A DNA stretch of 46,068 nt from Psittacicella hinzii (GTDB taxonomy: Bacteria; Pseudomonadota; Gammaproteobacteria; Enterobacterales; Psittacicellaceae), in assembly GCF_003585935.1 (NCBI RefSeq), contig NZ_NRJG01000005.1, positions 1-46,068 of the forward strand, in the 5' to 3' direction. The notes under the pieces were generated by a model. It ran no database searches, had not been told where the DNA came from, and saw only the letters and a program-made list of their open reading frames with translations. Positions 1,799 through 42,868 of the stretch are shown here, piece after piece. Within the stretch, counting starts at the first letter, position 1, and every line of letters starts with the position of its first letter. The translations under genes and the position numbers were made by a program.

Positions 1799-1861
1799 AA
1801 TCAACGGCAGTTTTTAACGCAAATCATAGATAACTCACTTTAGGCTCATAAGCACTAGACT

Positions 1862-1888: not shown

Positions 1889-1935
1889 CACTTTCTTATT
1901 TTTATTTCGACGACAATTTTCTTACGACGAATTAT

Positions 1936-2010: not shown

Positions 2011-2051
2011 TAAATACATCTTTACTTTTAACAACAAATAAACACAGAATT

Positions 2052-3053
2052 ATGACAAACAACCAAATGATGCAAGCAGCAATTCACCGTAGTTTTGGTG
2101 AGCCAGCTGAAGTAATTGAAACCGTAAACTTAGCAATCCCAGAACCAAAAGCCGATGAAGTACAAATCAAAATGATTTACTCACCTATCCATAATCACGA
2201 TTTATGGACTATTCGCGGTACTTATGGTTATAAACCAGAGTTACCTGAAGCAGGTGGTTCAGAAGCTGTAGGAATTGTTACTAAATTAGGTGCTGATGTT
2301 ACAAACCTACAAGTAGGTCAACGTGTTGCTATTGCGGCTACGCATGGAACTTGGGGTGAGTATTTTACAGGTCCGGCTGCTAGTTGTGTACCAATTCCAG
2401 AGCAAATGTCGGACGAAGATGCTGCGCAACTAATTGCAATGCCATTTAGTAGTATTACCCTTTTAGATTCATTAAACGTTACAGCTGGTGATTGGATTAT
2501 CCTCAATGCTGCAAGTGGTATGATTGGTAAAACTACGGCTATGTTAGGTAAAGCACGTGGCATTAATGTTATTAATGTAGTGCGTCGTAATGCCGCTGTT
2601 GAAGAATTAAAAGCTCTTGGTTTAGACTATGTTGTATTTACAGAAAATAGCGATTGGATGGATCAAGTTCGTGCTATAGTAAAAGATCAACCAATTAAAG
2701 CAGCTGTAGATTCAATTAGTGGTCAAGCTAGTTATGATCTTGCTGAACTCTTAGCTTATAAAGGAACTTTAGTAAGCTTTGGTACTTTAGAGCAAGAACC
2801 AGTAAAAGTTTCAGTGGGTGCTTTAATTTTTAAACAAATTAATGTGCGTGGATTCTGGGGTTTAATCGAAATCCGTGAAATGCCAGCCGAGAAGCGTGCT
2901 GCATTAATGCAAGAATTAATGCAACATATTATTGCTAAACGTATCGTTTTACCTGTAGCTGGGATCTATCCTTTAGAGCAAGCTGCACAAGCTTGTGCAG
3001 CCAGCCTTGCTCCTGGTAAAAATGGTAAAGTTTTAATTGCAGGAAGTAAATAG
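2052..3053 (+). CDS. MDR-family NAD(P)H-dependent oxidoreductase (zinc-type ADH / quinone or enoyl reductase-like)
   Basis: Medium-chain dehydrogenase/reductase of 333 aa. The N-terminal GroES-like half carries HNHDLWTIRGTYGYKPELP (from residue 47) and GGSEAVGIV. The Rossmann half begins at about residue 148 with the cofactor loop AASGMIG (153-159). The catalytic and structural zinc cysteines of true alcohol dehydrogenases are absent, so a zinc-independent reductase acting on quinones, 2-enals or enoyl thioesters is more likely (MECR/quinone reductase branch). It lies in a nemR-ohr neighbourhood and overlaps no other gene. A membrane-protein gene begins 4 bases after its stop. Substrate is not determinable from sequence. 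There is no clear Shine-Dalgarno sequence before the ATG. Confidence 0.75.
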   Translation: MTNNQMMQAAIHRSFGEPAEVIETVNLAIPEPKADEVQIKMIYSPIHNHDLWTIRGTYGYKPELPEAGGSEAVGIVTKLGADVTNLQVGQRVAIAATHGTWGEYFTGPAASCVPIPEQMSDEDAAQLIAMPFSSITLLDSLNVTAGDWIILNAASGMIGKTTAMLGKARGINVINVVRRNAAVEELKALGLDYVVFTENSDWMDQVRAIVKDQPIKAAVDSISGQASYDLAELLAYKGTLVSFGTLEQEPVKVSVGALIFKQINVRGFWGLIEIREMPAEKRAALMQELMQHIIAKRIVLPVAGIYPLEQAAQACAASLAPGKNGKVLIAGSK

Positions 3054-3057
3054 TTTT

Positions 3058-3438
3058 ATGTTTTTGTCCCATACGTACTTTTGGCTAGTGATCATTTTGC
3101 TTACGGCTACGGTGTTGGAGTTTGTTTTTATCTTTGTCATTGAAACAGTCATCCCACGTAGTGCTTTGACGCGTAGAGTATTTAATCTTGATCCAGAATT
3201 ACAAGCACAACCTTTAGTGCAGAACCTGTTAAAGAACCAAGGAGTTTATAATTTAGTCCTTGCGGTATTTCTTATAATTAGTGTTTGGTCAATGAGTGTA
3301 TTGTTTACTGTTTTAAGCTTAGGTGTAATGATCGCCGTAGCTATCTATGGGGCTCTAACAGTAAATAAGCATATTCTCTGGAAACAAGGTTTGTTACCGG
3401 CTTTAAGCTTAAGTGTCCTAATCCTAGGTGCTTTATAA
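3058..3438 (+). CDS. DUF1304-type small membrane protein
   Basis: 126-aa protein with about four hydrophobic segments (residues 5-30, 60-80, 82-102, 108-126) and the features of the DUF1304 family: NQGVYNLVLA, then IYGALTVNKHILWKQGLLPAL. Function is unknown. An AGGAAG ribosome site inside the 3' end of the preceding gene favours ATG 3058 over a TTG at 3037 that would overlap that gene. The 4-base spacing indicates co-transcription with the MDR oxidoreductase, placing it in the same stress cluster. A bidirectional terminator follows. Confidence 0.7.
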   Translation: MFLSHTYFWLVIILLTATVLEFVFIFVIETVIPRSALTRRVFNLDPELQAQPLVQNLLKNQGVYNLVLAVFLIISVWSMSVLFTVLSLGVMIAVAIYGALTVNKHILWKQGLLPALSLSVLILGAL

Positions 3439-3525
3439 GATCGAGCAATTTTCAGCTTCTTATCCTAAGATTTAAGATCTAAGACTTGAGAGCTAAAAAC
3501 TTAAAACTTTAAACCTTTCAAACTT

Positions 3526-3557
3526 AAATCCCCGTGAAGTAAGCTTCACGGGGATTT
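3526..3557. terminator. Bidirectional terminator between the DUF1304 gene and the GT6 gene
   Basis: Perfect 14-bp stem (AAATCCCCGTGAAG and complement) with a 4-nt loop between convergent genes. It can serve both strands. Confidence 0.85.
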
Positions 3558-3586
3558 AGGTTTATGAGTTTTGTGTAATATTTACT

Positions 3587-4516
3587 CTACTGTTCAACCT
3601 GATTATAAATCAGACCAACAAAGCCTAGATTTTGTTGCCAATAAGGTTCAAACTCGGCGCGTTGTTCGCGCCAAATGGCATCCAGATCTTTTTCATGCTC
3701 GAGTAATTGTTGGATTTGTTCTAAACTAAAACCAACTTGCTTATTACGCAGTGCGTTTAAATCTTGCACAAGTAGATTTTTATTCAGACAAACACCTAAC
3801 CACTCTGGACGTTCACCAATATACGAAGAAATCGGATGATATTCTTGAGGCACCATAAAGATTGGGGGCATAATATGTGCTTGATAACCTGTGGTATATA
3901 AATAGTGGTTAAGATGACTTTCATCATGCCAAAGAGCAATAATCCCTTTAGCTAAATCAAAATCAATATTTCGCTCAAGTGTGGCTATCATGTGCATAAA
4001 TGCTGCACTAGTGCCGCCAAAGAAACCACCTGCAACATATGTAGTTGTGGCATTCTCTGGAATATAGGCTAAAGACTGAGGATTGCGTTCGTAGGACTTA
4101 GCTGCTTCAGGTACAGCATTTTGCCCGTAGTGATAAACCAAGTATAAATCTTTAGATGCATCTCCGGTTGCTGGTTGCAGAAAGTTTTTACCGAGTATGG
4201 GATTCTTAGCGTACCAGTTAGCATTAGCAAAGAACACATAGTCGTATTCGCTTAAGAGTTCACGCACTTCTGGACGATTAAACATTTTAAAACGATGTAA
4301 AGTCGCTCCAGGCCATGCTAAGTGTTCTTGGGGAATTAGAGTTACATTCTCAGTATTAGCATAGGTAGTGGCTAGATCTTCGCTATCAGTAAAGACAAAA
4401 TATTGCACTTGGCAATCAGGTAAGAAGTTTTGTTGATTATGCGCAAATACGGCTTTAAAGAAAGTATCGTAAGATCCGGTATTAATACTTAAGAATGCTA
4501 CTTTAGGTTGTTGCAT
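3587..4516 (-). CDS. Glycosyltransferase family 6 (bacterial ABO/alpha-1,3-Gal(NAc) transferase-like)
   Basis: 309-aa cytoplasmic GT-A enzyme of the family that includes the mammalian ABO and alpha-galactosyltransferases. It has VAFLSINTG at the start, LHRFKMFN (about 73-80), FFANANW (95-101), VAGGFFGG (161-168) and HDESHLN (197-203). The metal-binding DXD of vertebrate enzymes is replaced by NAN (98-100). This is the NXN form known in bacterial GT6, which works without a divalent metal. No membrane anchor is visible. In host-associated bacteria such enzymes decorate LPS or capsule with host-like glycans; the acceptor here is unknown. It has no partner glycosyltransferase nearby. The upstream region carries three direct repeats. 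No ribosome site is evident. Confidence 0.8.
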   Translation of the reverse strand: MQQPKVAFLSINTGSYDTFFKAVFAHNQQNFLPDCQVQYFVFTDSEDLATTYANTENVTLIPQEHLAWPGATLHRFKMFNRPEVRELLSEYDYVFFANANWYAKNPILGKNFLQPATGDASKDLYLVYHYGQNAVPEAAKSYERNPQSLAYIPENATTTYVAGGFFGGTSAAFMHMIATLERNIDFDLAKGIIALWHDESHLNHYLYTTGYQAHIMPPIFMVPQEYHPISSYIGERPEWLGVCLNKNLLVQDLNALRNKQVGFSLEQIQQLLEHEKDLDAIWREQRAEFEPYWQQNLGFVGLIYNQVEQ

Positions 4517-4619
4517 AGAAAATATAGGAAAAATTTTACTCTAGAGGGAGTATGTAAAAAAGTACATACTGCTACACCATACATCACTTAATAGAGACTT
4601 ATTGCTTGATTTGTCTTTC

Positions 4620-4681
4620 TTGAAATAATTCTTAAACTTAGTTGAAATTAGTCTTAAGATTATTCTTGAAATTAGTCTTAA
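4620..4681 (+). repeat. Three direct repeats upstream of the GT6 gene
   Basis: TTGAAATTAGTCTTAA occurs at 4642-4657 and 4666-4681 (identical, 24-bp period). A related copy, TTGAAATAATTCTTAA, is at 4620-4635 (22-bp period). Spacing near two helical turns suits a regulator binding one face of the DNA upstream of the minus-strand GT6 gene. Confidence 0.65.
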
Positions 4682-4712
4682 TATCAGTGGTGAGTCTAAG
4701 TGAGGTAACCTA

Positions 4713-5795
4713 TTAGAGTTGCGTAATATTAATACTTGGAGCTGCGCTCTTAATTCGCATATAAGTCTGATATGCAACTTGATCGGCTAGTTGATTAAAT
4801 ACTTGTCCAATGCTGCTTTCTGGTTGCGAAGCAGTGGTAATAACCCCTAAATCAAGATCATGTCCAACTTGCGGATCTAAAGGAATGCTCGCAAGCAATG
4901 GTGTTTCCATAATTTGTGACATTTCTTTAACGCCATCTTTACCAAAGATATGCGCTTGGAAACCACAATTAGGACAAGTATACATGCTCATATTTTCTAC
5001 AATCCCTAATACCGGAATTGTTAGTTTACGGAACATGTTAACTCCCTTATATACATCTAAAAGAGCAATCTCTTGCGGCGTAGAGACGATTACGGCTGCA
5101 GTTACCGCAAGGTTTTGCGCCACTGTTAGTTGAATATCACCAGTACCTGGTGGCATATCAATCACTAAATAGTCTAAGTTAGGCCAATTAGTTTCTACCA
5201 TTAATTGTTTAAGCATCGAAGAAGCAACAGGTCCGCGCCAAATAGTTGCATCAGTTTCTCCCACTAAAAAACCAATTGAATTAGCAACAAGATTACCTAC
5301 TTGCACTGGGTTCATGGTTTTCTGATCATCTGATGTAGGTTGTTGATCTCCAGCACCAAGCATGTGCGGAATAGATGGACCATATACATCGGCATCAAGT
5401 AAACCAACTTTAGCTCCACCATTAGCTAGAGCTGCGGCTAAGTTAACTGCTACTGATGATTTACCCACACCTCCTTTACATGAAGATACGGCAATAATAT
5501 TTTTAACTCCTTTAACCGTCTCTTGTCCATTAGCTGCTGCACGCTGGCTAATGTTATATTGCAACTTAAGGTTAAGCATAGTTACCTCAGGTTGTTTACT
5601 TTGCACAAAGGTCAGTAACTCTTGTTGCAGATCTTGTATTTGCGTAAAAGCAAAAGGTAAGGTTAAAGTTAGGGCTAGAGTTTGTTTTTGGGGATTATAG
5701 AGAAAATCTTGAGGATTAAAAGCTTTTAACTCTTGTAAGCTTTTACCCCATTGTGAATATGAGAAATCTTGAATAAAAGTAAAGTCGCAACTCAT
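4713..5795 (-). CDS. mrp: Mrp/ApbC iron-sulfur cluster carrier ATPase
   Basis: Cytoplasmic P-loop ATPase that binds and transfers [4Fe-4S] clusters to apoproteins. The 360-aa protein starts with a MIP18-like domain (about 1-80). Then come the deviant Walker A CKGGVGKSS (106-114), LLDADVYGPSIP (132-143), the VIDMPPGTGD Walker B (211-220) and the C-terminal CPNC pair (Cys274, Cys277) that holds the bridging cluster. Length is close to E. coli Mrp (369). An AAGGAG ribosome site lies 8 bases before the ATG. E. coli mrp lies next to metG; here it is alone, divergent from guaC. Confidence 0.93.
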   Translation of the reverse strand: MSCDFTFIQDFSYSQWGKSLQELKAFNPQDFLYNPQKQTLALTLTLPFAFTQIQDLQQELLTFVQSKQPEVTMLNLKLQYNISQRAAANGQETVKGVKNIIAVSSCKGGVGKSSVAVNLAAALANGGAKVGLLDADVYGPSIPHMLGAGDQQPTSDDQKTMNPVQVGNLVANSIGFLVGETDATIWRGPVASSMLKQLMVETNWPNLDYLVIDMPPGTGDIQLTVAQNLAVTAAVIVSTPQEIALLDVYKGVNMFRKLTIPVLGIVENMSMYTCPNCGFQAHIFGKDGVKEMSQIMETPLLASIPLDPQVGHDLDLGVITTASQPESSIGQVFNQLADQVAYQTYMRIKSAAPSINITQL

Positions 5796-5967
5796 GCAAC
5801 ATACTCCTTATCGATAGTGAATATAATTAGCTTTTGCTATTAGTGCAACAAAGACTAAAAGCAATCTTCTATTTTACTCCAAATTGCCGTCTCTTGCGGA
5901 TAATTCTATGTTGCGCTTTAATCTCTATTTAGAAAGCACATTTAATTTTGGATACAAATTACAATCC

Positions 5968-6011
5968 TTGGTTATTTTTTTACCTATTCTTGGTTATTTT
6001 TTTACCTATTC
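5968..6011 (+). repeat. 22-bp perfect tandem duplication
   Basis: Two consecutive identical copies of a 22-bp unit beginning TTGGTTATTTTTTTACC (5968-5989 and 5990-6011). Each carries a run of seven T. It lies between divergent genes, about 70 bases before the guaC -10. Confidence 0.85.
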
Positions 6012-6077
6012 TATACAAGTTGTTTTTAACTCTAAGAAAAACCGTACTAAATACTTCTTAGCAGCGTAATAGGTTTA

Positions 6078-6125
6078 TGATAATATATATAAAACTGGGC
6101 AGCAAAAATGCCCAGTTGTTTTTTT
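6078..6125 (+). promoter_or_regulatory. guaC extended -10 and 5'-terminal hairpin with U-tract
   Basis: TGATAATAT (6078-6086) is an extended -10, placing the transcript start near 6093. The hairpin AACTGGGCA / TGCCCAGTT (6093-6101 and 6109-6117) begins at that point and is followed by GTTTTTTTG. The shape is that of an intrinsic terminator located between promoter and gene. It may act as an attenuator, a 5' stabiliser, or end an upstream transcript. Confidence 0.55.
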
Positions 6126-6148
6126 GTTTAAAAAAAGGAAAATTTTCC

Positions 6149-7135
6149 ATGATAAATGATATGAGAATCTTCGACTACGAAGATATTCAGTTAATTCCTA
6201 ACAAATGTATTGTTGAAAGTCGTTCAGAATGTAATACTCATGCACGTTTAGGTAAAATGGAGTTTAAAATTCCGGTAGTACCTTCAAACATGCAAACTAT
6301 TATTGATGAACCTTTAGCTGAAGAATTAGCACGTCGGGGTTACTTTTATATCATGCACCGTTTCAATCCAGAAACGCGTGAAGCTTTTATTCGCCATATG
6401 AAAGAGCAAGGTTTATACTCTTCAATTTCTATTGGGGTAAAAGCTGATGAATTTGATTTTGTGCGTCATTTAGCTGCGCAAAATTTAGTGCCAGAATATA
6501 TTACGATCGATATTGCCCATGGTCATTCAGAAAAAGTTATCGAAATGATTAAGTTCATTAAACAAATTTTACCTGAAACTTTTGTGATTGCGGGTAACGT
6601 AGGTACACCAGAGGCAGTACGTGAATTAGAAAATGCTGGAGCTGATGCTACTAAAGTAGGTATTGGTCCAGGTAAAGTATGTATCACTAAGTTAAAAACT
6701 GGTTTTGGTACAGGTGGTTGGCAATTAGCTGCTTTACGTTGGTGTGCTAAAGCTGCAACTAAACCAATTATTGCTGATGGTGGTATTCGTGATCACGGTG
6801 ATGTAGCTAAGTCTATGCGTTTTGGTGCGACTTTTGTAATGATTGGTTCGTTATTCTCAGGACACGAACAAAGTCCAGGTGAAACAATTGAGATCGACGG
6901 TAAACTTTACAAAGAATACTTTGGTTCAGCTTCAGAGTTCCAAAAAGGTGAACGTAAAAACGTGGAGGGCAAGAAAATCCTTACTCCATATAAAGGAGAC
7001 CTTTTTGCTACCCTAACCGAAATGGAACAAGACTTACAAAGTTCAATTTCGTACGCAGGTGGTAAGGACTTACGTGCCTTACGTAAAGTTGATTATGTAA
7101 TCGTGAAGAACTCTATTTTTAACGGTGACCGTTAA
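6149..7135 (+). CDS. guaC: GMP reductase, 325-330-aa class
   Basis: Converts GMP to IMP with NADPH, part of purine salvage. The 328-aa protein is an IMPDH/GMPR-type TIM barrel. It has [18 protein letters not shown] near the start, [11 protein letters not shown] (147-157), and the catalytic loop [11 protein letters not shown] with Cys178, followed by the flexible GFGTGG segment. The start matches the shorter class seen for example in Firmicutes rather than the 346-aa E. coli type, so it may have been acquired. ATG 6149 is chosen because AGGA lies 9 bases upstream. A longer frame opening at 6077 would run through the leader hairpin. The bases GGAAAATTTTCC (6137-6148) can partly mask the ribosome site. 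Confidence 0.9.
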
Positions 7136-7153
7136 TTTAAATTATAGTTAGCA

Positions 7154-7188
7154 TTAAGCCCCTGAAAGGTTTCCTTTCAGGGGCTTAA
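7154..7188. terminator. Bidirectional terminator between guaC and prfC
   Basis: 16-bp perfect stem (TTAAGCCCCTGAAAGG and complement) with a 3-nt TTT loop, between convergent genes and 18 bases past the guaC stop. Confidence 0.8.
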
Positions 7189-7299
7189 AATATGTTACTG
7201 TTTTTCTAAACGTGTAAGCACAATTAGAGTCTTAACTTCAATCTTGTTATTTACTAATTAGCAATTTAAGTGCTAACTAATTAAGAATAGTTAAAACTA

Positions 7300-8892
7300 T
7301 TAGTGCTCACGAGTAGAGAAGAAGCGTACTTCTGGGTATTTTTCTTGCGTTAGGTTTAAATTAACCATATTTGGTGCAATGTAAGTTAAGTTATCAGCAC
7401 CATCTAAAGCTAAGTTACCTTCACAACGACGTTTAAATTCGTCGAATTTTTTCGGATCTGCGCAATCTACCCAACGAGCGGTAGCAACGTTTACTGATTC
7501 GTAAATAGCTTCTACGTTATATTCGTTTTGTAGACGGTTCACTACTACGTCAAATTGTAGTACCCCGATAGCACCAACAATTAAGTCATTGTTCGTAAGT
7601 GGACGGAATACTTGTACCGAACCTTCTTCTGATAATTGGATTAGACCTTTAAGTAGTTGTTTTTGTTTTAAAGGATCTTTTAAACGAATACGTTTAAAGA
7701 GTTCTGGAGCAAAGTTAGGAATACCCGTAAACTTAACTGGTTCTTTAAATGTACTGAAAGCATCACCAATTTGGATTGTTCCATGGTTGTGAATACCGAT
7801 AATATCACCAGCATAAGCTTCTTCGGCATTAGTACGATCCCCTGCTTCAAAAGTTAAAGCATCGTTTAAAGTAACTTCTTTACCAATACGGTGGTGATTA
7901 ACTTTTAGACCTTTTTCGTATTTCCCAGACACAATGCGCATGAAAGCAACACGGTCACGGTGTTTAGGATCCATGTTTGCTTGGATTTTGAAGATAAAGC
8001 CTGAAAATTCTGGAGCAGTAGCTTCAACTTCACCATCCAGCGTTGGACGTGGTAATGGAGAAGGAGCATATTTGGTTAGATAATCTAACATATGATCCAC
8101 ACCGAAGTTACCTAAAGCTGTCCCGAAGAAAACCGGAGTTAATTTCCCAGCTAAAAATTCTTCAGCATCAAACTCGTTACTTGCACCTTGTACTAATTCA
8201 AGTTCTTCAACAAAAGCTGCATGCGTATCTTCACCAATCGCTGCAATTAGTTCTGGGCTATGTAAACCGTCAATGCGTACAACTTCTTGAATGCGACTAC
8301 CTTGACCAGATTTATACATAATCGTATAGTCACCAGCTAAGTTATAAACGCCTTTAAAGAACTTGCCTGAACCAATAGGCCAAGTAATTGGAGCACATTT
8401 GATTTTAAGAATATCTTCTACTTCATCAAGTAGACTTAATGGATCACGAATATCACGGTCTAACTTGTTCATAAAAGTTAGAATTGGTGTGCTACGTAGA
8501 CGTGTAACTTCCATTAATTTAATTGTACGTTCCTCTACCCCTTTAGTAGCATCGATTACCATTAGTGCCGAGTCTACAGCGGTTAAAGTACGATAAGTAT
8601 CTTCCGAGAAGTCTTCGTGTCCAGGAGTATCTAAGAGGTTAACCATACAGTCATTGTATGGGAATTGCATAGCTGATGTTGTAACCGAAATACCACGTTG
8701 TTTTTCGATTTCCATCCAGTCAGATTTAGCTTTTTGTTGGTTGCCTTTACCTTTAACTGCACCAGCAGATTGAATAACTTTACCTACAAGGAGAAGTTTT
8801 TCGGTAATGGTTGTTTTACCGGCGTCCGGGTGAGAGATAATCGCAAAGGTACGACGTTTTTGAATTTGCTCTAAAGTTTGATTTGTAGCCAT
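7300..8892 (-). CDS. prfC: Peptide chain release factor 3
   Basis: Translational GTPase that removes RF1/RF2 from the ribosome after termination. The 530-aa protein, the same size as E. coli RF3 (529), carries the P-loop HPDAGKTT (21-28), the switch II motif DTPGHEDF (88-95) and the guanine-binding MNKLDRD. The C-terminal domains follow in the usual order, with [15 protein letters not shown] typical of RF3. There is no obvious ribosome site before the ATG. The genes on either side are unrelated. Confidence 0.96.
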
Positions 8893-9013
8893 AAATAAAA
8901 ACTTAAGTTTGTACTACGTAAATACGCATAAACTAAGCTCCATTATGGAGCTTAGTTGTAAGTACATCATAGGTTGTAGTTTTTAAAGCCTAGTCAGAGT
9001 AAGATGATTACTC

Positions 9014-10171
9014 TTATTTACTAGGTTTAAAAAAGTGTAATCCTTGAGTGCTATCTAAATAATCAGGTAAAGTTAATGGAGCAATATACGGCTCGAAAGT
9101 TAAGATTAACTTAGCCGCTGGTAAGGTAGCAGTTTTACGCACATAATCGTTATATGTCGTATTGATTTTTGCTCCCTCTTTCATGCTTACATTAATTAAA
9201 GCACTATTTAATTTGTCACCAGCAAAAGCTTGTTCTACTTGCGTGCCAAAGCGATAGTGGTTTAATTGTTCGACAATACTTTGCGCTGCATATTCAGTAG
9301 CAATGGTATTAACTGCTTTAGCAAAGTCAGGATAATTATCTAAAGCCGTTAATTGTAAGAAAATGTTTACCATTTGGCAAGTTTGGCGTAAATTAGTATT
9401 AAATTTAGCCAGTTCACCTTGGTAGTAGTCATTTAAAGATCCAACACCACGTTGTACAAAGCCTACATCAAGGTTAAACGCGCCAACTTGACAAAGAGTA
9501 TTATATTGTTGAAGATATTCAGGAAAATTGGCAGTGGTAAAATTAATTTCTACCCGATTTTGATCAAAAAGACCTTGCCAATTGTAATTTATATTTGACT
9601 GTAAAAAGCGATATTCTGCCATTACATAGTCAAAATAAAGATTTATTGCACGGAAAATACGTAAACGTTGAGCATTATCTCCGTGAAAAAAGTTGTATGT
9701 GTTGCGCATTAATACGCTTTCGACATCTCTTAAACCGATTAGGGTGTAATGGGATAGATAAGATGCTCGGCGTAAACTGGCGAGAAAATCGTCATAATTG
9801 GGATCAAGGTCATTAGAATCGTTTAGAAGATCCTCGCCTTTATCTGCTTGCTGGAATAAGGTAGTTATTGGATCGAGTTGAATACTGCTTGGTAAGCGGT
9901 TTACATGTCCATAACGTTGATCAGCAGCTAAACGTAATAAAGATTCAATAGTTACTTTACTAATGTTAAAGTCATTACTAAAGTAATAATTGCCTTGATT
10001 AAAATTATTATTAAAAATCACCGATGGATATAGGGGGTGATGTAAATCGAGATTTTCAATATAAGGGTTAGTTTGGGCGACGTTTTCTTCAGTCGACTTA
10101 CCACAACTAACTAACGCCAGAGCCATACTTAGACAAGCGCAAAAATATAATAGGGCTCTAGATACATTCAT
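9014..10171 (-). CDS. Unrecognised lipoprotein
   Basis: 385 aa with a type II signal peptide: hydrophobic residues 6-21 and lipobox LVSC with Cys23 as the predicted lipidated residue. The following residue is Gly, so outer-membrane sorting is plausible. The mature part is rich in Asn, Tyr, Phe and Leu and mostly helical in appearance, with two internal cysteines. I recognise no domain. The next gene, 10494-11399, encodes another exported protein of similar composition. Both have an N-terminal segment of the pattern N-x-NQ-x(3)-YF-x(2)-D, so they may be distant paralogues. The upstream region has a TATAAT on the minus strand, but no ribosome site precedes the ATG. Confidence 0.7.
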   Translation of the reverse strand: MNVSRALLYFCACLSMALALVSCGKSTEENVAQTNPYIENLDLHHPLYPSVIFNNNFNQGNYYFSNDFNISKVTIESLLRLAADQRYGHVNRLPSSIQLDPITTLFQQADKGEDLLNDSNDLDPNYDDFLASLRRASYLSHYTLIGLRDVESVLMRNTYNFFHGDNAQRLRIFRAINLYFDYVMAEYRFLQSNINYNWQGLFDQNRVEINFTTANFPEYLQQYNTLCQVGAFNLDVGFVQRGVGSLNDYYQGELAKFNTNLRQTCQMVNIFLQLTALDNYPDFAKAVNTIATEYAAQSIVEQLNHYRFGTQVEQAFAGDKLNSALINVSMKEGAKINTTYNDYVRKTATLPAAKLILTFEPYIAPLTLPDYLDSTQGLHFFKPSK

Positions 10172-10493
10172 GGAATTCTGTTACAGGTTACATGAGCTAG
10201 TTAATCCTAACTCAAGTTCGGGACTATTATAGCAATAATTAAGCTTTTTCGTCGATCAAAAAAGTGAAAATTCAGCTTTATTTGCCACCGAGGCTTAATA
10301 AAGGTGGTCTGGAAAGATTGTTGGAAAATTAACAGTCATTATTTCTGAAAAATAAGCGGTTAATAAATTTCAAATCTAACTTTTTAGAGCTGAATTGTTT
10401 CTATATTATAACAGAAAGCGCTAGGTAAAAATCCCTAGCGCATGCAAAGAAAAGAAATTTTAGTACTAGTTTGAGTGCTAGAAGCATAGTAGT
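10172..10493. other. Gap between two exported-protein genes
   Basis: 322 bases. It holds the terminator hairpin of the upstream gene (10418-10441) and minus-strand TATAAT motifs near 10410 and 10228. There is also a 5-bp CCACC/GGTGG stem (10285-10307). No ORF is supported. Confidence 0.5.
10418..10441 (-). terminator. Terminator of the secreted-protein gene
   Basis: GCGCTAGG/CCTAGCGC 8-bp stem. On the minus strand it is followed by TTTCTGTTATAAT. It ends the gene at 10494-11399. Confidence 0.65.
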
Positions 10494-31700: not shown

Positions 31701-34139
31701 ATGTTTGAATTGTTATTTCTTTTTATTCCATTAATTGCGATTTTATCGTTTTTACTGGGATGCCTGTTTAAAGGAAGCTTTTCAGCATGGTTATTAAAAC
31801 GTCGCACTAAAAGTTCGTATCTCGACGAAGTTCCGATAGTGATTAAAGATAATAACCCCCAAGCTAATGAAGTAGTTGAACGCTTAATTAGTACTGTCGA
31901 ATATATTGTCGACGGTAACTTGATTGCTGAAGTACCCCAAGTACATAAAATGCCACAAGAGAAAAAACCTTTGGCATTTGATAAAGCTCCTAAAAGTACA
32001 ACGATTAGTAAAACAAAACAAAAATCAACGCAAGAATTTGCACAACAAGCTAAAGAGCTTGAACAAAACTATGCTGCACGTCCGACGATAAATTTAACGC
32101 AAGATGATTTTTATCAACAAATGCAAAGTGCAGGTCAGAATAAAGAAACAACTGCACATGTTGAAAATAGTGTAAATTCGCAGACGGTTGCAGAAAAATC
32201 GGCGCAAGCGACAAAAGATAAGATAAAAGCTCAAGAAGCAACTACTACAGCTCAAGTACAAACTCTTAATAATGAAGCTGCTTCTAATTCAGATTTTATG
32301 CAGAGCTCTGATTCTAGTTCAGAACAAGATTCAGATATTACTAAAGATGAGCTGCAAAATAGGGTTAACACTAATAGCCAAAATAGTGCCAAATCAGAAA
32401 TAAATAGCAAAAGTGATGAAGTATTAGCTCGTAACGAAAACGATTTAACCTCTGCCGCAGCCGCCTCAAGCAACTCAAAAAATGCTAGTGAATCTCCAAG
32501 CGCTAATGAACACCTTAATGCGGATAGCTCTTTAGCGGTAAATGATTTAGATCAAGCTTTATTTAGTAATCCTAACGATGAAGCTGTGCGTATTACCGCT
32601 AATTTACAAGCAGCACAAGATAAAAAAGCCCAAGCTAGTACAAAAGAGACTAAGCAGACTACGACAAATTTACGTTTAGATTTTGCTCTTAATCCACAAA
32701 ATATAAGTCAACAGGATTTACTTGCTGCCCGTTCTTTACAAGATTTACAACGTCCGTACGGAGTAATTGCTAGTGACGTAGGTCATTTACTAGAATTACA
32801 AATGCTCGGTGGTGTTCTTTGCATGCAAAGAGGTGATTATTTACGTGCGATTAAGATCTTCCGTCACATTATTGCTATTCCATCTTGGAAACAAGAAGGA
32901 CATAAACTGGCACAAATAAATTTAGCTCGCTGCTATCTTAATGCGGGAATGTTCTCACGGGCTTTAGAAAATCTTTTACCTTTAATTGGAGATGAGCGTT
33001 ATGAAAGTGAAGTAATTGAACTTTTACTCTATATCTACCAATTAAATCAAGATTGGCAACCAGCTCTAGCCGTAGCTAAAGAGATCTATGCTTTAAATAA
33101 AACTAAAGCCAACCTAGATCAATTGTGTCACTTTTATCTGTTCCGCTTGCTTGATTGTTACCTAGATATCGGACACCGTCGTACCATGTTCTCGTTCCAA
33201 CGCATTATTGCCCTAGCGGCTTCAAGTGTACGACCATTGGTAACCAGAGGTAATTATCATTTTGCCTTAGGTGATTATCACAATGCCTTAAGTGATTATC
33301 GTCAAGCAATTAAGCAAAACTTTATGCTCTTACCAGCTTTAATTGCTAACATTGCTTATTGCTATGCTTCGATTAAGCCGATTGGTGAAGATTTAGGGAC
33401 TTATTTACAAAGTATAAAAGTTCCAGCAAACTATCAGTATGTAATAGATCTATACTACGACTTATATTTAAGTAAGTATGATTTCTTACCTTATGCGCAT
33501 AGTTTTGAGTTTCAAGATAAAGCCAAAAGTTCTGCCGAAGTATTTAGAGATCTGGTTTTAGGTAATAGTCCACTTGATGCTCGAGATTTCGAAATAGAGT
33601 TAGCCCAACGGGAAAAACTCTATCGTAAATCAACTACAGCTGGCAGCATTTTAGAAAATATTGCTGGTTTAGTGCAAACTGAAGATAAAGAACAATTAAG
33701 TGATGCTGAACTAATGCAACAACGTTTAGAACATTTAATGCATCTTTATCAAGAGCACGGACATAATGTACTGTTACAACGCATTTTTGATTTAACTTCT
33801 AATCTTCTTTTAGAAAACAATCAAGAAGAGCTTAAACATACTAGTGAGAATGCAGGTCTGGTAAGTACTTGGTTTGGGCGTAAAAAGCGTAAAGTTGAAG
33901 AAGCAACTTCAGACCAAGTTTTATCACCTAAACAGCAACAAATGCAGTTGTTTATGCAAAAGCTAGCGGCCATGTTAGAACAAGATGAGAAAAAAGCTTT
34001 AAGTGCTACTTACGTTTGTAAGAATTGTGGTTATCAACAGCCAGATTTATTTTGGAGCTGTCCATCTTGTCACAAACTAGAAACCTTTACCTTAAGTAAA
34101 TTAAAATTTGCCAAGGGTAAAGTTTCAAAAGCTAACTAG
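31701..34139 (+). CDS. lapB: LapB-like LPS assembly protein, enlarged
   Basis: LapB (YciM) is a membrane-anchored TPR protein that binds FtsH and delivers LpxC for degradation. This 812-aa protein starts FELLFLFIPLIAI (anchor helix). It has TPR-like repeats from about residue 365 (GDYLRAIKIFRHIIAIP, AGMFSRALENLLPLI, GDYHNALSDYRQAI). It ends with the rubredoxin-type zinc domain CKNC-x10-CPSC (Cys773, 776, 787, 790), as in E. coli LapB. E. coli LapB has 389 residues. Here about 280 disordered residues rich in Ser, Asn, Gln, Lys and Glu separate anchor and TPRs (about 60-340), and a second helical insertion lies before the zinc domain. TATAAT at 31632-31637 gives it its own promoter. No ribosome site is visible. 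Confidence 0.85.
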   Translation: MFELLFLFIPLIAILSFLLGCLFKGSFSAWLLKRRTKSSYLDEVPIVIKDNNPQANEVVERLISTVEYIVDGNLIAEVPQVHKMPQEKKPLAFDKAPKSTTISKTKQKSTQEFAQQAKELEQNYAARPTINLTQDDFYQQMQSAGQNKETTAHVENSVNSQTVAEKSAQATKDKIKAQEATTTAQVQTLNNEAASNSDFMQSSDSSSEQDSDITKDELQNRVNTNSQNSAKSEINSKSDEVLARNENDLTSAAAASSNSKNASESPSANEHLNADSSLAVNDLDQALFSNPNDEAVRITANLQAAQDKKAQASTKETKQTTTNLRLDFALNPQNISQQDLLAARSLQDLQRPYGVIASDVGHLLELQMLGGVLCMQRGDYLRAIKIFRHIIAIPSWKQEGHKLAQINLARCYLNAGMFSRALENLLPLIGDERYESEVIELLLYIYQLNQDWQPALAVAKEIYALNKTKANLDQLCHFYLFRLLDCYLDIGHRRTMFSFQRIIALAASSVRPLVTRGNYHFALGDYHNALSDYRQAIKQNFMLLPALIANIAYCYASIKPIGEDLGTYLQSIKVPANYQYVIDLYYDLYLSKYDFLPYAHSFEFQDKAKSSAEVFRDLVLGNSPLDARDFEIELAQREKLYRKSTTAGSILENIAGLVQTEDKEQLSDAELMQQRLEHLMHLYQEHGHNVLLQRIFDLTSNLLLENNQEELKHTSENAGLVSTWFGRKKRKVEEATSDQVLSPKQQQMQLFMQKLAAMLEQDEKKALSATYVCKNCGYQQPDLFWSCPSCHKLETFTLSKLKFAKGKVSKAN

Positions 34140-34222: not shown

Positions 34223-34252
34223 AAGAGTACGATTAATTTCGTACTCTTTTTT
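34223..34252 (+). terminator. lapB terminator
   Basis: AAGAGTACGA/TCGTACTCTT 10-bp stem with a 6-nt loop, followed by TTTT. Confidence 0.85.
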
Positions 34253-34544: not shown

Positions 34545-34859
34545 ATGGCATTAGTTTATAGCACTGATGTAGGTCGCATTAAAGAAGAACCTGAACAAGA
34601 ATTACCACCTGAAGGTGATGGTATTGTTCGTCTTTATAAAGAAACTAAAGGTCGTAAAGGGGCTGGAGTAGTACTAGTTACAGGTACAGGTCTTGATAAA
34701 GACGGCTTAAAAGAACTTTGTAGTTTTTTAAAGAAAAAACTCGGAGTTGGTGGTAGTGTTGAGGATTGGGATGTAGTAATCCAAGGGGGTGACAAACGTC
34801 CGCAAATCCAAGCTTTATTAGAGCAAAAAGGCTTTAAAGTAAAAATTGCAGGAGGTTAG
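34545..34859 (+). CDS. yciH: YciH, SUI1/eIF1-like translation factor
   Basis: 104-aa SUI1-domain protein related to eukaryotic eIF1. The conserved core is VRLYKETKGRKGAGVVLVTGTGL (about 28-50), then LKELCSFLKKKLGVGGSVEDWDVVIQGG. Bacterial YciH binds the 30S subunit and affects initiation fidelity, and has been reported as a stress-linked inhibitor of translation. AAGGAAAG lies 7 bases before the ATG. The stop is followed within 2 bases by the next ATG, so it is translationally coupled to the SmrB-like protein. This pairs an initiation-related factor with a collision-rescue nuclease. The leader is long and structured. Confidence 0.92.
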   Translation: MALVYSTDVGRIKEEPEQELPPEGDGIVRLYKETKGRKGAGVVLVTGTGLDKDGLKELCSFLKKKLGVGGSVEDWDVVIQGGDKRPQIQALLEQKGFKVKIAGG

Positions 34860-34860
34860 G

Positions 34861-37044
34861 ATGGGAATAAAAGACGCAATAATTCGAGCTTTTATTAATC
34901 GTAAAGCCGGTGACCCAGATTTTGCAGAAGTAACTGAACCAAATACCACAGAACTTGATGCATTAAAAGAACGCCTGTCACAAGTTATCGATAAAGGTTT
35001 ACAGGAAAATATTTTTGACGATCATCGTGAAGATATCGGACAAAGAGATATGGATCAAACCTTACATAGTTTATTCGATGATTCGGGCAAAGATTTAGAA
35101 GCGAATAAAGGTAAGAGTATTTACAATACTGGACAGTTCCAAGTGCTTGATAGTCCTGCGGTATATCAAAACGTAGAATTTAACGAGCAAGACTACGAAG
35201 ATCATCGTGGAGCTGTTATCGGCAACTTAAGTTTTGCAGCTCAAGCTAATCAAGCTGCTCCTGACTATAATCCAGATGCAATTCTCGGTTCAACGCCTCG
35301 TAAACTACAATCACGTGCGATGCTTACTAATCGTGGAGCTACTTCTAATGATGGTCTCATGGCATTACACCAAAACCGTCTAGATGGTACAAGTTTACAA
35401 GCGCGTAATTTACCTGGTAATGTAAAAACAGAACAGCAAGAAAGTTCAGACGTAGAAACTCGTGTAACCGAGTATGCACAAAACCCTCAAGGTATTGTTA
35501 AGTCATTTGTGCAACGTACTTCACATACGCGTACAATTACGCAATACCATAAACTTGATGGTAGTGTTGAACAGATTATTGAAGATAAAAATATTTCAGA
35601 AGATGTTGAGCGTAATCTACTTGACAATGGTAATGTACAAGAAACCGTTACAACCAATACCCAACATAAAACAACTAAGCATAGCACTCAAGCTCTAATT
35701 GGAGCTCCGAGCAATATGAATGCAAGTGTGGTTGAGCATGTAGACGTTGAGCCTGTTTCTAAACTAGCTTTAACTACTCCTCAAGTAACACGTGCTTTAG
35801 CTGCTCCAGCTCCACAAGAGCAACAAACTCCAGTCTCAAAATCAACAGCTAATGAAGATTCGTTTGCTGCTTTATTTGAAAAAGAAGAATACTTTAAACC
35901 TTCATTTGCACATGAAGCTGAAATCATTGATCATTATCAGCCAGTGAGTAGCTATGCTCTAATCGAATCTCCGCATGCGACTATGGATACGCAAAATCGA
36001 GAAAAATTAGCACAATATAAACAGGCGGTAAAAAATAGCTTACCACCTGTAAGTAAAAAAGAAGACTTTGCAAGTTTACTAGATCGTCATCCAAGTCAAT
36101 TTAATGACAAGGATCAACAACTTGAACGTCAGAATTTAGCTTCGAAACGCAAAAAAGCTAAAATGTTTGCTCCAGGAAGTGGATCTAATCTACGTCCACA
36201 AAAAACTAATTTTAGTCATGGACGTGATTTAGCGCACGAGCATGAAGAAGCTGTTAAAAGAGTTGTAGCTGGTAAATTTGCTGATCTAGTTGATAGCGAA
36301 ATTCAAGAAGTTGCTTATGAAGTAGATCGTTCAAATGAACAGCAACAACGTTTCAATCAAAGCAATAGTTTTGCTCAGCTCTTTGAAGCAAAAAATTCAC
36401 AGCAAAAACAAACTTCAAAGTTTGTAGCTAAAGATGATTCTTTTGCTCAAGCTTTTGCGGATATAAATCCTTACGATAATAACTCTACTCGTGCAACTTC
36501 TTTACAGCAACAAAGAAGACAAGCTGAACTTGAACGTAAAGCACGGGCAGGAATTAAATCTGGTAAAGAAATTATCGAGCAACAGTTAGCACAAGAAAAA
36601 TATGATGCTTTACAAAATACACCAGATGTAGTCTTCTCTGATATTCACATGCGTTTTAATGCTCATAATTATGAGCATGCGCGTTTTGCGGCCGAAGACT
36701 TAGATCCTGATGTATTACATGCGTTTATGAATAATTTATTACCTATCCAACGTGAAGTTGATTTACATGGTGTGACGGTAGAAGAACTAAAAAACATTCT
36801 GCCAAATATCGTAAAACAATGTTGGAGACATAATGAATTTGTTCTGCGTTTTATTACAGGACATGGGAAAGACGTTATTAAACAAAGTCTTCCTAACTAC
36901 TTAATTCAGTATGAACGTATAGCTGCTTTCTATCCAAACCGTGAAAATAACGGTAAAGGTAGAACTAATGGTTTTGTAGTGTTACTACGTAACTATGATA
37001 AAGAAATTGCAGCTAATGCGTCATTACTTGTAAACAAAGCATAA
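34861..37044 (+). CDS. Very large SmrB/SmrA-like Smr-domain protein
   Basis: 727 aa. The last approximately 110 residues are an Smr nuclease domain: DLHGVTVEEL (634-643), GHGKDVIKQSLP (667-678) and a final NGFVVLLRN strand, in the order of E. coli SmrB, which cleaves mRNA between collided ribosomes. E. coli SmrB has only 183 aa. Here about 600 mostly disordered residues precede it. They include four copies of a short helix-like motif: EDSFAALFE (332-340), EDFASLLD (401-408), NSFAQLFEA (502-510) and DDSFAQAFADINP (525-537). The last resembles the N-terminal element of E. coli SmrA (FLDAMEDVQP). AGGAGG overlaps the yciH end, 5 bases before ATG 34861; a TTG at 34846 is rejected. Nuclease activity is inferred. 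Confidence 0.8.
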   Translation: MGIKDAIIRAFINRKAGDPDFAEVTEPNTTELDALKERLSQVIDKGLQENIFDDHREDIGQRDMDQTLHSLFDDSGKDLEANKGKSIYNTGQFQVLDSPAVYQNVEFNEQDYEDHRGAVIGNLSFAAQANQAAPDYNPDAILGSTPRKLQSRAMLTNRGATSNDGLMALHQNRLDGTSLQARNLPGNVKTEQQESSDVETRVTEYAQNPQGIVKSFVQRTSHTRTITQYHKLDGSVEQIIEDKNISEDVERNLLDNGNVQETVTTNTQHKTTKHSTQALIGAPSNMNASVVEHVDVEPVSKLALTTPQVTRALAAPAPQEQQTPVSKSTANEDSFAALFEKEEYFKPSFAHEAEIIDHYQPVSSYALIESPHATMDTQNREKLAQYKQAVKNSLPPVSKKEDFASLLDRHPSQFNDKDQQLERQNLASKRKKAKMFAPGSGSNLRPQKTNFSHGRDLAHEHEEAVKRVVAGKFADLVDSEIQEVAYEVDRSNEQQQRFNQSNSFAQLFEAKNSQQKQTSKFVAKDDSFAQAFADINPYDNNSTRATSLQQQRRQAELERKARAGIKSGKEIIEQQLAQEKYDALQNTPDVVFSDIHMRFNAHNYEHARFAAEDLDPDVLHAFMNNLLPIQREVDLHGVTVEELKNILPNIVKQCWRHNEFVLRFITGHGKDVIKQSLPNYLIQYERIAAFYPNRENNGKGRTNGFVVLLRNYDKEIAANASLLVNKA

Positions 37045-37621
37045 TTTTAAATCTCATGGTAACCCCATGAGATTTTTTTTGTGCAAGGTAACCGCATAGC
37101 ACACAGCTCTACAAACACTTTCAAAAAGTGAGGCAGCACATAGCTTCCATATAGGCAAAAAAAGATCTATAGAGAAGCAAAATTTATATTTTTAATGCTA
37201 ATTTTGGATAAGTCTAGCTAGGAAGAGGCAAAAATTTACAAATTTTTTTCGGGACTTGTTTATCTTATCATCGCTATAAATGGATATTTGTTTTAAGGTG
37301 AATTCTCTATTTAGGGTTAAAATATAAAATTTATCTATAGTTTTAGCCTATTGATATATTGATGATTGTTGGTGGTGTTTTTGTTGAAATAAAAAATATC
37401 CATACCTATAAATTAGTTGTAAGAAGCAGCTGATGATCCTGATGATTATTCTCCGCAACTCTTGATAAGAGGATTCTTAACAAGCTTATGGAGTATGCAA
37501 ATACCCAACTTTAAAAGTTGTAATGATGGTTATGCATATGGATCTCATAGCTCAATACTAAATTCAAAACACACAAGATTAAAACAAACAGATTTAAAAC
37601 AACACACTAAGGATAAAAATT
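37045..37621. other. Gap between the smr gene and the repeat-protein gene
   Basis: 577 bases. It contains the smr terminator at 37049-37080. The rest is AT-rich DNA with no strong palindrome. A 61-codon frame at 37462-37647 lacks a ribosome site and overlaps the next gene, so it is not called. The repeat-protein ribosome site is AAGGAT at 37609-37614. Confidence 0.5.
37049..37080 (+). terminator. yciH-smr operon terminator
   Basis: AAATCTCATGG/CCATGAGATTT 11-bp stem followed by a run of T to 37080. Confidence 0.88.
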
Positions 37622-39634
37622 ATGGCAATGTCACCAAAATTAGTTAAAACTGCTGCTGTAGCAGCTCTCGTAAGTTTAGTAACTACTACAGCGTTAGCTA
37701 CTGGTGTTCCAACGAACAATCAAAACAACCAAGCTCCTCAGCAGTTCAATACTATGCCTTATCCTCCGCAGGGACAGCCGATGCAGCTTGATGTTAGGAA
37801 TGATAATTCTCTAGCTAAGCTACGATTACCACAAGGGGTAACAGTAAAAGCTCCTGCGAATTTTGTGGTGACTCCTACGGATAACGCTTTATTACGTGCT
37901 GTAGGTACTAACGCACAAGTGTACGTAATGTTAGTACCAAAAAATCAATCTACTGACTTTAGTTCACTATTACAGTCACAAAGAACTGCGGACAATAATC
38001 AACAAAGATTCTACGTAGATAATAATTATCAACGTAATATGGCTCAACAAGGTGCACAAGGTCAACAACCGAATCAACCACAAGGTCAGTTCGCACCTCA
38101 AGGTCAGCAACCTAATCAGCCACAAGGTCAATTTGCCCCTCAAGGTCAACAGCCTAATCAACCACAAGGTCAGTTAGCACCTCAAGGTCAACAACCTAGC
38201 CAAGTTCAAGGTCAGTTCGCTCCGCAAGGTCAGCAGCCTAACCAAGCTCAAGGTCAATTTGCACCACAAGGTCAGCAACCTAACCAAGCTCAAGGTCAAT
38301 TTGCACCACAAGGTCAACAACCTAATCAAGCTCAAGGTCAATTTGCACCACAAGGTCAACAACCTAATCAACCACAAGGTCAGTTTGCACCTCAAGGTAA
38401 ACAACCTAACCAAGAGCAAGGTGGTAACCCAGATCGTCAACAATTTAAAGGTTCTTCGCCATATGGTTTAACTGTTGGTGAATTATCTCGTATGCAACGT
38501 ATGCACGATCATCACAAAGGTATGAAAGGTGGTGAACGTCGTGAAGCTAGAGATGACATGAAAGCTGAAGGTAGACCTCAAAATAATGATAATGGTTTTG
38601 CTAAACAACCTGGAATGGGTCAACCAGCTGGTATGAATCAACAATCAGGTGTGAACCAACAGCCAGGAGCGAACCAACAGCCAGGTGCAAATCAACAACC
38701 AGGTATGAACCAACAACCTGGTATGAATCAACAACCTGGTATGAATCAACAACCTAGTATGAATCAACAACTAGGTATGAATCAACAACTAGGTATGAAT
38801 CAACAACTAGGTATGAATCAACAACCAGGTATGAATCAACAACCAGGTATGAATCAACAACCTAGTATGGGTCAACAACCTGGTATGGGTCAACAACCTA
38901 GTATGGGTCAACAACCTGGTATGGGTCAACAACCTAGTATGATGCCGCAATTTGGCATGATGAATGGTCAACCAAGTCCTAATGATTTAACTTTAGCTCC
39001 TAGTCGTATGCTAAATGGTAAATTATTAGATCGTTTACCACAAGATGCTAATGCTCAACAACCAGCTCAAGCTACTTTAAATGTTGATCAACAAAATGCG
39101 GTAGCTAATTTAGTATTAAATGCAACTACCGAGAAGTTAGCTGTTTCACAAGATAATGAATTTGCTAATGGTCAAACTAAAGTTGTAATGGCTGATGGTA
39201 AAGGATCAATTCGTTTTGACGCTCGTGTTTATTCACAAAATGGTAACATTCGTGACGCTTATCAATACGTGCATGCTGTAACTATGGATTACAATAAAGA
39301 TTACAACCTAGTTGCTGTATATTACTATTTTGGTGATAAACCAGAATCACGTCAAACTATCGCTCAAGTTGAAGGTTTCTTAGAATCAGTACGTACGTTT
39401 AAACCTCACTTTAAACATATGCCATTCCAAGGTAACCGTGCTGATAATGCACAGGCTCCAGCACAACCTGCGCCAAATATGCCAAATAATACGCAAAACA
39501 ATGGCAATAACCAAGGTAATGCTTTTGTGAATCGTGGTTCTCAAGCTCCAGTAGCACCAAATAATGGTACACCTGCAGCTCCAAACGCTACACCTGCAGT
39601 ACCTAATGCTTCCTGTAGCTCCAAACAATGGTAA
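37622..39634 (+). CDS. Secreted low-complexity repeat protein, frameshifted near its 3' end
   Basis: 670 aa as read. A signal peptide (residues 1-26, cleavage near ALA-TG) is followed by a short folded segment (LRLPQGVTVKAPANFVVTPTDNALLRAV, about 60-105). Next come eight tandem 14-residue repeats GQQPNQPQGQFAPQ (from residue 147) and a charged spacer. Then about 17 six-residue repeats of the GMNQQP type follow (from residue 337), and a second folded segment (about 490-600) including DAYQYVHAVTMDYNKDY. The Pro/Asn/Ala-rich tail stops at 39634, but the same composition continues in another frame to 39731, so the reading frame is broken at about 39611. It is likely exported and surface-exposed or periplasmic. 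The function is unknown. The ribosome site is AAGGAT, 8 bases upstream. Confidence 0.75.
   Translation: MAMSPKLVKTAAVAALVSLVTTTALATGVPTNNQNNQAPQQFNTMPYPPQGQPMQLDVRNDNSLAKLRLPQGVTVKAPANFVVTPTDNALLRAVGTNAQVYVMLVPKNQSTDFSSLLQSQRTADNNQQRFYVDNNYQRNMAQQGAQGQQPNQPQGQFAPQGQQPNQPQGQFAPQGQQPNQPQGQLAPQGQQPSQVQGQFAPQGQQPNQAQGQFAPQGQQPNQAQGQFAPQGQQPNQAQGQFAPQGQQPNQPQGQFAPQGKQPNQEQGGNPDRQQFKGSSPYGLTVGELSRMQRMHDHHKGMKGGERREARDDMKAEGRPQNNDNGFAKQPGMGQPAGMNQQSGVNQQPGANQQPGANQQPGMNQQPGMNQQPGMNQQPSMNQQLGMNQQLGMNQQLGMNQQPGMNQQPGMNQQPSMGQQPGMGQQPSMGQQPGMGQQPSMMPQFGMMNGQPSPNDLTLAPSRMLNGKLLDRLPQDANAQQPAQATLNVDQQNAVANLVLNATTEKLAVSQDNEFANGQTKVVMADGKGSIRFDARVYSQNGNIRDAYQYVHAVTMDYNKDYNLVAVYYYFGDKPESRQTIAQVEGFLESVRTFKPHFKHMPFQGNRADNAQAPAQPAPNMPNNTQNNGNNQGNAFVNRGSQAPVAPNNGTPAAPNATPAVPNASCSSKQW
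38060..38425 (+). repeat. 42-bp tandem repeat in the repeat-protein gene
   Basis: Eight complete 42-bp units from 38060 to 38395, each encoding a variant of GQQPNQPQGQFAPQ. A partial ninth unit (GKQPNQEQGG) follows. Copy-number change keeps the reading frame. Confidence 0.9.
38630..38935 (+). repeat. 18-bp tandem repeat in the repeat-protein gene
   Basis: About 17 units of 18 bp encoding GMNQQP and variants (GANQQP, SMNQQL, GMGQQP). Clusters of identical variants suggest recent unit duplication. The reading frame is preserved. Confidence 0.9.
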
Positions 39635-41746: not shown

Positions 41747-42868
41747 TTAATGCCAAAATATAGGCGCTTGTAAATCAGTCATTTTATAACTCGAACGAAA
41801 ACTATACATAGATAACACTGTTGCGACCTGATTAATTTCTCCAAAATCAGCAGTTGTTGCTTGTGTCATTTCAGGATAAATCATTAGTATGTTAGCAAGA
41901 GTAAAGAATAAATCTTTATGTTGCTTATTATGATTTAGTTCTTCTTGCTTTAGCCTACTCCATAATGAGATATCTGACATTACATCTTTGTATTTATGAG
42001 CTTGTGAATATAAGGTGCTTGTGCGTTCTTTAAATGTATATTGCTTCACTTCTTCTTCAATCAGTTCAAAGGCAAGAGTACTGCTATCTTTGATGGTATA
42101 TAAAGAAGTTTCTGGGTTATATTCACCCCATATAGTGCTAAATTCCATAGCAAAATAACTAGGATCACATTGCCAGAGGTAATTACCTAAGGGCAGAGCT
42201 AAAAGTTTATACAGATTGTATAAACGAAAAGTAGCAGTTAACTCTTTACGCCAAATTAAATTAGCTTGCCAACTTAGCAGTCTTAATTGAGCTACATGTT
42301 CTTGCGCGCTTGAGAGAGCGGTATAGCAAAATTGTTGCAATAAGAATGGATAGGCTTGTTCAGCTGCATATACTTCTTGATAATGCAATTCAAGCACCAT
42401 TGGTTCAAATAACGCTTGTAGAGTAGTTAATACACTATAGTCGTTTTTGAAGATTAGTTGCCAATGCTCAATGATAGGTTTGGTAAGGCTGATGAATTTA
42501 GTGTCTAACTTTTTTAACTGTTCTTTAGTAAAAAAGACTTTATATTCAAGTTTAAGTCCTTTTATAAAGGTCTTAGCATCATAATGAGCTTGTAATTGTG
42601 CCCAAGTAAAAAGGTAGCCTAATACATGAGCATAACTTGGAGTATCCGCACTAAAGGGAAAGTGCTTTTGCCAATATTTATATAGTGGTAAAGAGGCTTG
42701 TAAAAAATTTACAATAGCGGTTATTTCAGCTTGATTTTTAGGTTGATCTTCAGCTTGTAAGCTTTTTATTTTATTGAGCAGAGCATCTAATTCAGGATTA
42801 GTTGTCACCTCGGGATGTTGCAGCGACAATCCAAGATCTCTTGCTAATTGTGATGTAATTTTACGCAT
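41747..42868 (-). CDS. Hypothetical cytoplasmic protein
   Basis: 373 aa with no signal peptide or transmembrane segment. It is predicted mostly helical and rich in Leu, Gln, Tyr and Lys, with many Trp (for example KYWQKHFPF, SWQANLIWRKEL, DISLWSRL). I recognise no domain or catalytic motif. Codon use and composition are like the neighbours, so there is no sign of recent transfer. The upstream 200 bases contain a cluster of hairpin-forming repeats (43062-43160). The gene is monocistronic. The large partial ORF at the right edge has a similar helical, Leu/Asn/Gln-rich character, but no shared motif is evident. Confidence 0.6.
   Translation of the reverse strand: MRKITSQLARDLGLSLQHPEVTTNPELDALLNKIKSLQAEDQPKNQAEITAIVNFLQASLPLYKYWQKHFPFSADTPSYAHVLGYLFTWAQLQAHYDAKTFIKGLKLEYKVFFTKEQLKKLDTKFISLTKPIIEHWQLIFKNDYSVLTTLQALFEPMVLELHYQEVYAAEQAYPFLLQQFCYTALSSAQEHVAQLRLLSWQANLIWRKELTATFRLYNLYKLLALPLGNYLWQCDPSYFAMEFSTIWGEYNPETSLYTIKDSSTLAFELIEEEVKQYTFKERTSTLYSQAHKYKDVMSDISLWSRLKQEELNHNKQHKDLFFTLANILMIYPEMTQATTADFGEINQVATVLSMYSFRSSYKMTDLQAPIFWH

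Follow-up and report, generated by a model that had tools for sequence, protein, structure and literature searches.

A SmrB-type protein of Psittacicella with one ribosome hook and three putative bS1-type anchors

The endonuclease SmrB cleaves mRNA between ribosomes that have collided. The E. coli protein (YfcN), of about 180 amino acids, carries a single N-terminal hook, in which a phenylalanine is followed by [GD]-h-K, and a Smr domain with the motifs DLH and GHGK. By binding uS2, the hook brings SmrB to the ribosome (PMC10897456). In ribosome queues, the uS2 proteins of the leading and queued ribosomes touch, the proposed hook site on the queued ribosome is overlapped by the bS1 helix, and bS1 was resolved only on the last ribosome of the queue, not on the leading and middle ones; in paused disomes, bS1 is found on the SmrB site, and SmrB binding may need something more (PMC10897467). 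In E. coli bS1, Phe5 and Phe9 of this helix stack on uS2 Phe32, Gln7 and Glu10 contact uS2 Met6 and Arg7, and the protein is further anchored by its OB1 domain through Lys43 and Phe79 (PMC10123108). A second point of comparison is MutS2 of B. subtilis, another Smr protein that recognises collisions and has additional parts for ribosome binding; it reportedly lacks nuclease activity (PMC10897456).

The window analysed here is the whole of a 46,068-nucleotide stretch of Psittacicella DNA (contig NZ_NRJG01000005.1). Psittacicella (family Psittacicellaceae) are gut and crop bacteria of birds. On the plus strand, at 34861..37044, the window contains a gene for a 727-amino-acid Smr protein, which we assign as smrB-type from the Pfam Smr match and from ORF and start-site evidence, the ATG at 34861 having GGAGG close in front of it, a good ribosome-binding site. 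The Smr domain lies at the C-terminus (36757..36987, plus strand; residues 633-709; E 7e-11, 42.5 bits against a cut-off of 25.7), and a Pfam search found no other domain in the protein. DLHG stands at residues 634-637 and TGHGK at 666-670. DLH and GHGK are invariant in four species, one of which reads DLHK; both the D and the H of DLH are replaced by A in the PDB chains of SmrB, which fits a construct made catalytically dead. An ordinary C-terminal Smr domain with these motifs, and an enlargement of about fourfold, had been claimed in the preliminary description, and both hold: the motif positions are confirmed, and SmrB of Pasteurellaceae measures about 170-180 amino acids. In the tree, a branch of 2.47 (support 100/100) sets the SmrA side apart, and the 727-amino-acid protein does not fall within that side. 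The protein belongs to the SmrB lineage, like E. coli SmrB, and not to SmrA. The branch of the Psittacicella Smr proteins is itself very long, with 4.8 changes per site, and for a domain this divergent nuclease activity is not assured. The NCBIfam equivalog PRK04946 gives 43.3 bits, which is below its cut-off of 128, and since this model was built on the short form, the cut-off serves for naming and does not reflect a biological feature. The protein is best read as the Psittacicella version of SmrB, with hook and Smr core (approximately residues 520-727) apparently intact and with about 520 extra residues preceding the SmrB-type C-terminus.

It is the sole Smr protein found in the genome under study, which is about 87% complete, and the known carriers of the gene are only four species. 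For comparison we aligned it with orthologues from P. gerlachiana, P. hinzii and P. melopsittaci, which have 602-633 residues and 52-54% overall identity. The C-terminus alone, used as a query for close relatives in genome contigs, gave no match; a search of viral contigs returned no relative of the Smr protein, and plasmids and phages gave only weak matches confined to the Smr end. AlphaFold runs with the four sequences were poor overall (mean pLDDT 47), and a Foldseek search with this low-confidence model returned Smr-domain matches and otherwise uninformative beta-sheet matches. The extra parts of MutS2 comprise an ATPase and a uS10-binding KOW domain. A MutS2-like architecture was considered for the Psittacicella protein and rejected: core/lever, clamp, ATPase and KOW were not found, and Pfam gives Smr alone.

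The extra residues fall into two parts. Residues 1-275 (34861..35685, plus strand) are conserved in Psittacicella and, as judged from conservation, modelling and a search of other genomes, were found in this genus only, with 0 of 368 other gammaproteobacterial genomes carrying them. They include the invariant stretch TLHSLFDDSGKD, and a four-strand beta meander is predicted for residues 188-276, with a pLDDT mostly of 70-88 in this block. Conservation is 0.73 for residues 49-142 and 0.58 for residues 191-275, as compared to 0.81 for the Smr domain. The second part, residues 276-545, consists of linkers that have diverged with many gaps in the four-species alignment and of four short motifs with key phenylalanines at 335, 403, 504 and 528. 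These four motifs were present as previously described, their coordinates lying within 1-3 residues of the key phenylalanines. They are conserved well above the linker, with a mean pairwise identity across the four species of 0.71 in the motif columns versus 0.19 in the rest of residues 276-545. A further conserved island surrounds RKKAKMFAP (RKKAKMFAPxS, approximately residues 429-440; 36145..36180, plus strand; from four-species conservation). In the AlphaFold output, short helices of low confidence appear at 335-338, 403-408, 506-509 and 527-533, and there is little order in the sequence around them.

Motif 1, DSFAALFE (residues 333-340; 35857..35880, plus strand), is the most conserved 8-mer within residues 276-545, and conservation, a bS1 matrix and the helix in the model mark it as a putative bS1-type anchor for uS2. 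The same kinds of evidence identify motif 2, EDFASLLD (residues 401-408; 36061..36084, plus strand), as a weaker candidate anchor, which reads ESFADLIE, ESFAALVD and ESFASLLD in the congeners. For motif 3, NSFAQLFE (residues 502-509; 36364..36387, plus strand), the evidence comes from shuffles, conservation, the bS1 matrix, PDB letters and the model: its SFAQLFE is, letter for letter, residues 4-10 of E. coli bS1, whose letters we confirmed in PDB chains. Motif 4, DSFAQAFADINPY (residues 526-538; 36436..36474, plus strand), corresponds by conservation, alignment, hook matrix and model to the N-terminal hook of the Smr family. It reads DDSFRKAFQDIKPLK in P. hinzii and has drifted in the window's own species, with INPYD for IKPLK. 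The distance from the hook to DLH is constant in all four species, at 104-106 residues, and motif 3 precedes motif 4 by 22-24 residues; the two longer spacings vary, at 53-68 and 66-101 residues.

The preliminary description had taken all four motifs for copies of the hook, and this survives for motif 4 only. A weight matrix built from 56 SmrA/SmrB hooks placed its top site on motif 4 in 4/4 orthologues; in three of them none of 30,870 background windows scored as high, and one did for the window's own motif 4. Motifs 1-3 were not recognised by this matrix, with 730 to 10,206 background windows scoring as high. Aligned locally by profile, the protein matched Pasteurellaceae SmrB over no more than the Smr domain and the residues immediately in front of it, while the global profile alignment, in which end-to-end pairing is forced, paired motif 4 with the Pasteurellaceae hook; the hook assignment thus rests mainly on the matrix. 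A second matrix, built from 34 bS1 N-termini, gave the opposite picture. No window out of a background of 31,494 scored higher than motif 1 in any of the four species, motifs 1 and 3 had background ranks of 0-1, and motif 2, the weakest match of motifs 1-3, was beaten by 0-14 windows. That the four motifs are copies of one hook is therefore ruled out by the two matrices, a recent DNA duplication is ruled out by the absence of long direct repeats, and chance motifs are ruled out by conservation, by the matrix ranks and by shuffles of residues 276-560, which gave a mean of 0.02 windows scoring at least 11, versus 2 observed. Across the genome, the DNA pattern for FAx[hydrophobic]FE was matched 7 times, including 2 matches in the smr gene, and the reversed control pattern 10 times; the pattern is thus not enriched genome-wide.

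The likeness to bS1 extends to the residues that touch uS2. With [ED][SN]FAQLFE taken as the bS1-type sequence, all four contact residues of bS1 (Phe, Gln, Phe and Glu) recur in motif 3; motif 1 has Ala for Gln, and motif 2 lacks both the contact Gln and the second Phe. Gammaproteobacterial bS1 starts with MTESFAQLFE, and three Psittacicella bS1 sequences start with MENFAQLFEAQ; these congener proteins stand in for the organism's own bS1, whose gene the incomplete assembly does not contain. In two congeners, motif 3 reads SFAQMFEAQ, which is similar to this same-genus start, NFAQLFEAQ. On the other side of the contact, Psittacicella uS2 keeps Arg7 and has Tyr at 32 for Phe32 and Val at 6 for Met6. 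Judged by sequence, motifs 1-3 are bS1 N-terminal-helix motifs and motif 4 is an ordinary SmrA/SmrB hook. In bS1 itself the helix occurs once, at the extreme N-terminus, and is followed by OB domains, whereas the Psittacicella protein has three internal copies on linkers and no OB domain. What is new is a SmrB variant with one predicted hook and three predicted bS1-type anchors; E. coli SmrB, in contrast, has neither bS1-type motifs nor the 275-residue N-terminal region.

The explanation that we favour, and regard as rather likely, is that of a collision endonuclease which would use its three bS1-type uS2 anchors and its one hook to grip queued ribosomes by avidity. In this mechanism, a new arm of about 520 residues would have been added ahead of the hook and the Smr core, and three short linear motifs on its flexible linkers would copy the first helix of bS1. 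Each motif would dock on uS2, the platform site common to the SmrB hook and bS1. Since bS1 is reported absent from leading and middle ribosomes, a queue would expose several bS1-free uS2 sites side by side, and three weak bS1-type anchors plus the hook could bind such a queue by avidity. The nuclease would thereby be delivered to the mRNA between ribosomes, where the Smr domain with its DLH and GHGK motifs would cut, and the ribosomes upstream would afterwards be rescued by tmRNA, which all four genomes contain. By analogy with SmrB, the Psittacicella protein probably does cut mRNA. Judged from their sequence, motifs 1-3 most likely dock on uS2; that several queued ribosomes may be gripped at once reaches further. 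The shared uS2 site, the touching uS2 proteins and the loss of bS1 make it plausible that motifs 1-3, though of a sequence family other than the hook's, would reach a site of the same kind. As bS1 is also anchored by OB1, which is absent from the motifs, a lone helix may bind weakly, and the short distance between motifs 3 and 4 limits the placement of both. A ribosome-docking arm, as had been suggested earlier, is still the best reading, though in detail it would carry one hook and three bS1-type anchors.

The same features could serve a simpler end, an unlikely but serious alternative, in which the bS1-type motifs raise the local concentration of the protein on any ribosome, as a general tether with neither multi-ribosome contact nor added collision sensing, or else bind again and again to a single uS2 site. 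On each ribosome the four motifs would share a single target, the last two stand close together, and in bS1 anchors of this type work on single ribosomes (PMC10123108). However, the two longer spacings could reach neighbouring ribosomes and the uS2 sites touch in disomes, though neither point is decisive.

A similar motif is seen in a group of SmrA-type proteins. Among proteins of probable Succinivibrionaceae, a family assigned from genome traits and bS1, 25 of 30 have F-x-x-L-[LIM] ahead of the hook and close to the N-terminus (TFADLIDLPEENAQEIDFAKAVGKVDKLKQD is an example), while it was found before the hook in 0/30 presumed Pasteurellaceae proteins and 0/25 other Smr proteins. With F-x-x-L-[LI] some 16-22 residues ahead of the hook, the arrangement resembles Psittacicella motifs 2-3 plus motif 4, but the Succinivibrionaceae proteins have a SmrA-type domain, only about 205-260 amino acids, a single extra motif and a short linker, and their motifs match the bS1 matrix more weakly than those of Psittacicella. 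Here, too, a Smr protein may have acquired a bS1-type anchor, which would make a second case. Were the motifs instead to serve a different partner, the likeness to bS1 would be convergence on a generic F-A-x-L-F-E amphipathic helix. The motifs are short, at eight residues, and the internal TFAELFE of an unrelated 1006-amino-acid protein of the same genome, which has no Pfam family and may be a chance match, would fit such a convergence. We nevertheless consider it improbable: it would be a strange coincidence if three such motifs stood ahead of a hook directed at the same uS2 site, and the bS1-matrix ranks of motifs 1 and 3 as well as the similar motif beside the hook in Succinivibrionaceae also argue against it.

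The gene is the second of a two-gene unit. The first, yciH (34545..34859, plus strand), encodes a SUI1-family factor, identified by a match to NCBIfam PRK09019 (E 2.6e-37, below the curated cut-off), and its stop codon lies 1 bp ahead of the smr start. The coupling to YciH noted in the preliminary description was borne out, as the order yciH-smr is kept in 4/4 Psittacicella species. The SmrB relatives tested differ in this respect, and at 87 Smr loci of other families no yciH was present within 1.5 kb. The pair sits between two terminator-like hairpins, both found by consensus scan only, one before yciH (34223-34248) and one with a T run just 3' of smr (37049..37075, plus strand), and the best reading is that smr is transcribed together with yciH. 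This linkage to an initiation factor in all four species, together with motif letters that match bS1, would also suit a protein that drives bS1 off uS2 when ribosomes are stalled or idle and so lowers initiation jointly with YciH. We judge this highly improbable, since the conserved hook and the DLH/GHGK Smr domain point to a nuclease, and short motifs would have to out-compete a bS1 that is additionally held by OB1.

Observations were also made on other proteins of the window. Directly 3' of smr, at a place where it was not seen in congeners, lies a gene for a 670-amino-acid protein rich in Q, N, P and G (37622-39634), with no Pfam family over the cut-off and with two arrays, a 42-bp unit repeated 8.7 times (38057-38422) and an 18-bp unit repeated 18.8 times (38604-38942, MNQQPG repeats). 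A 373-amino-acid protein on the minus strand (41747-42868) had no Pfam match at E 0.01. The LapB homologue at 31701-34139 has 812 amino acids, and a long stretch of low complexity separates its N-terminus from its TPR part; the congeners' versions have 620-653. This points to a tendency of the genus to inflate disordered linkers. That the smr arm reflects such inflation only, with long disordered stretches inserted in many proteins (LapB of the window and the congeners far exceeding the roughly 390 residues of the NCBIfam LapB models) and with motifs that are chance or remnants, is scarcely credible and was already disfavoured by the motif identity relative to the linker and by the matrix ranks.

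The avidity mechanism might be taken one step further. With three bS1 anchors and a hook, the protein could read the row of uS2 sites vacated by bS1, such that recruitment would rise steeply with the number of queued ribosomes, and the protein would be a sensor of queue length. We propose this tentatively, as a reading that may well turn out to be too ambitious. If it is true, this would be, to our knowledge, the first known case of a factor in which the bS1 anchor has been taken over and repeated for docking; our targeted searches of the open-licence literature found no paper on such an architecture.

It is an open question by what means bacteria distinguish damaging pile-ups of ribosomes from short pauses, and the Psittacicella protein bears on it. 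A natural SmrB with copies of the bS1 anchor suggests that competition for uS2 sites, or their counting, belongs to the answer. If the Succinivibrionaceae motifs are bS1-type anchors as well, anchor addition arose at least twice. Psittacicella SmrB offers a system in which the number of hooks can be varied.
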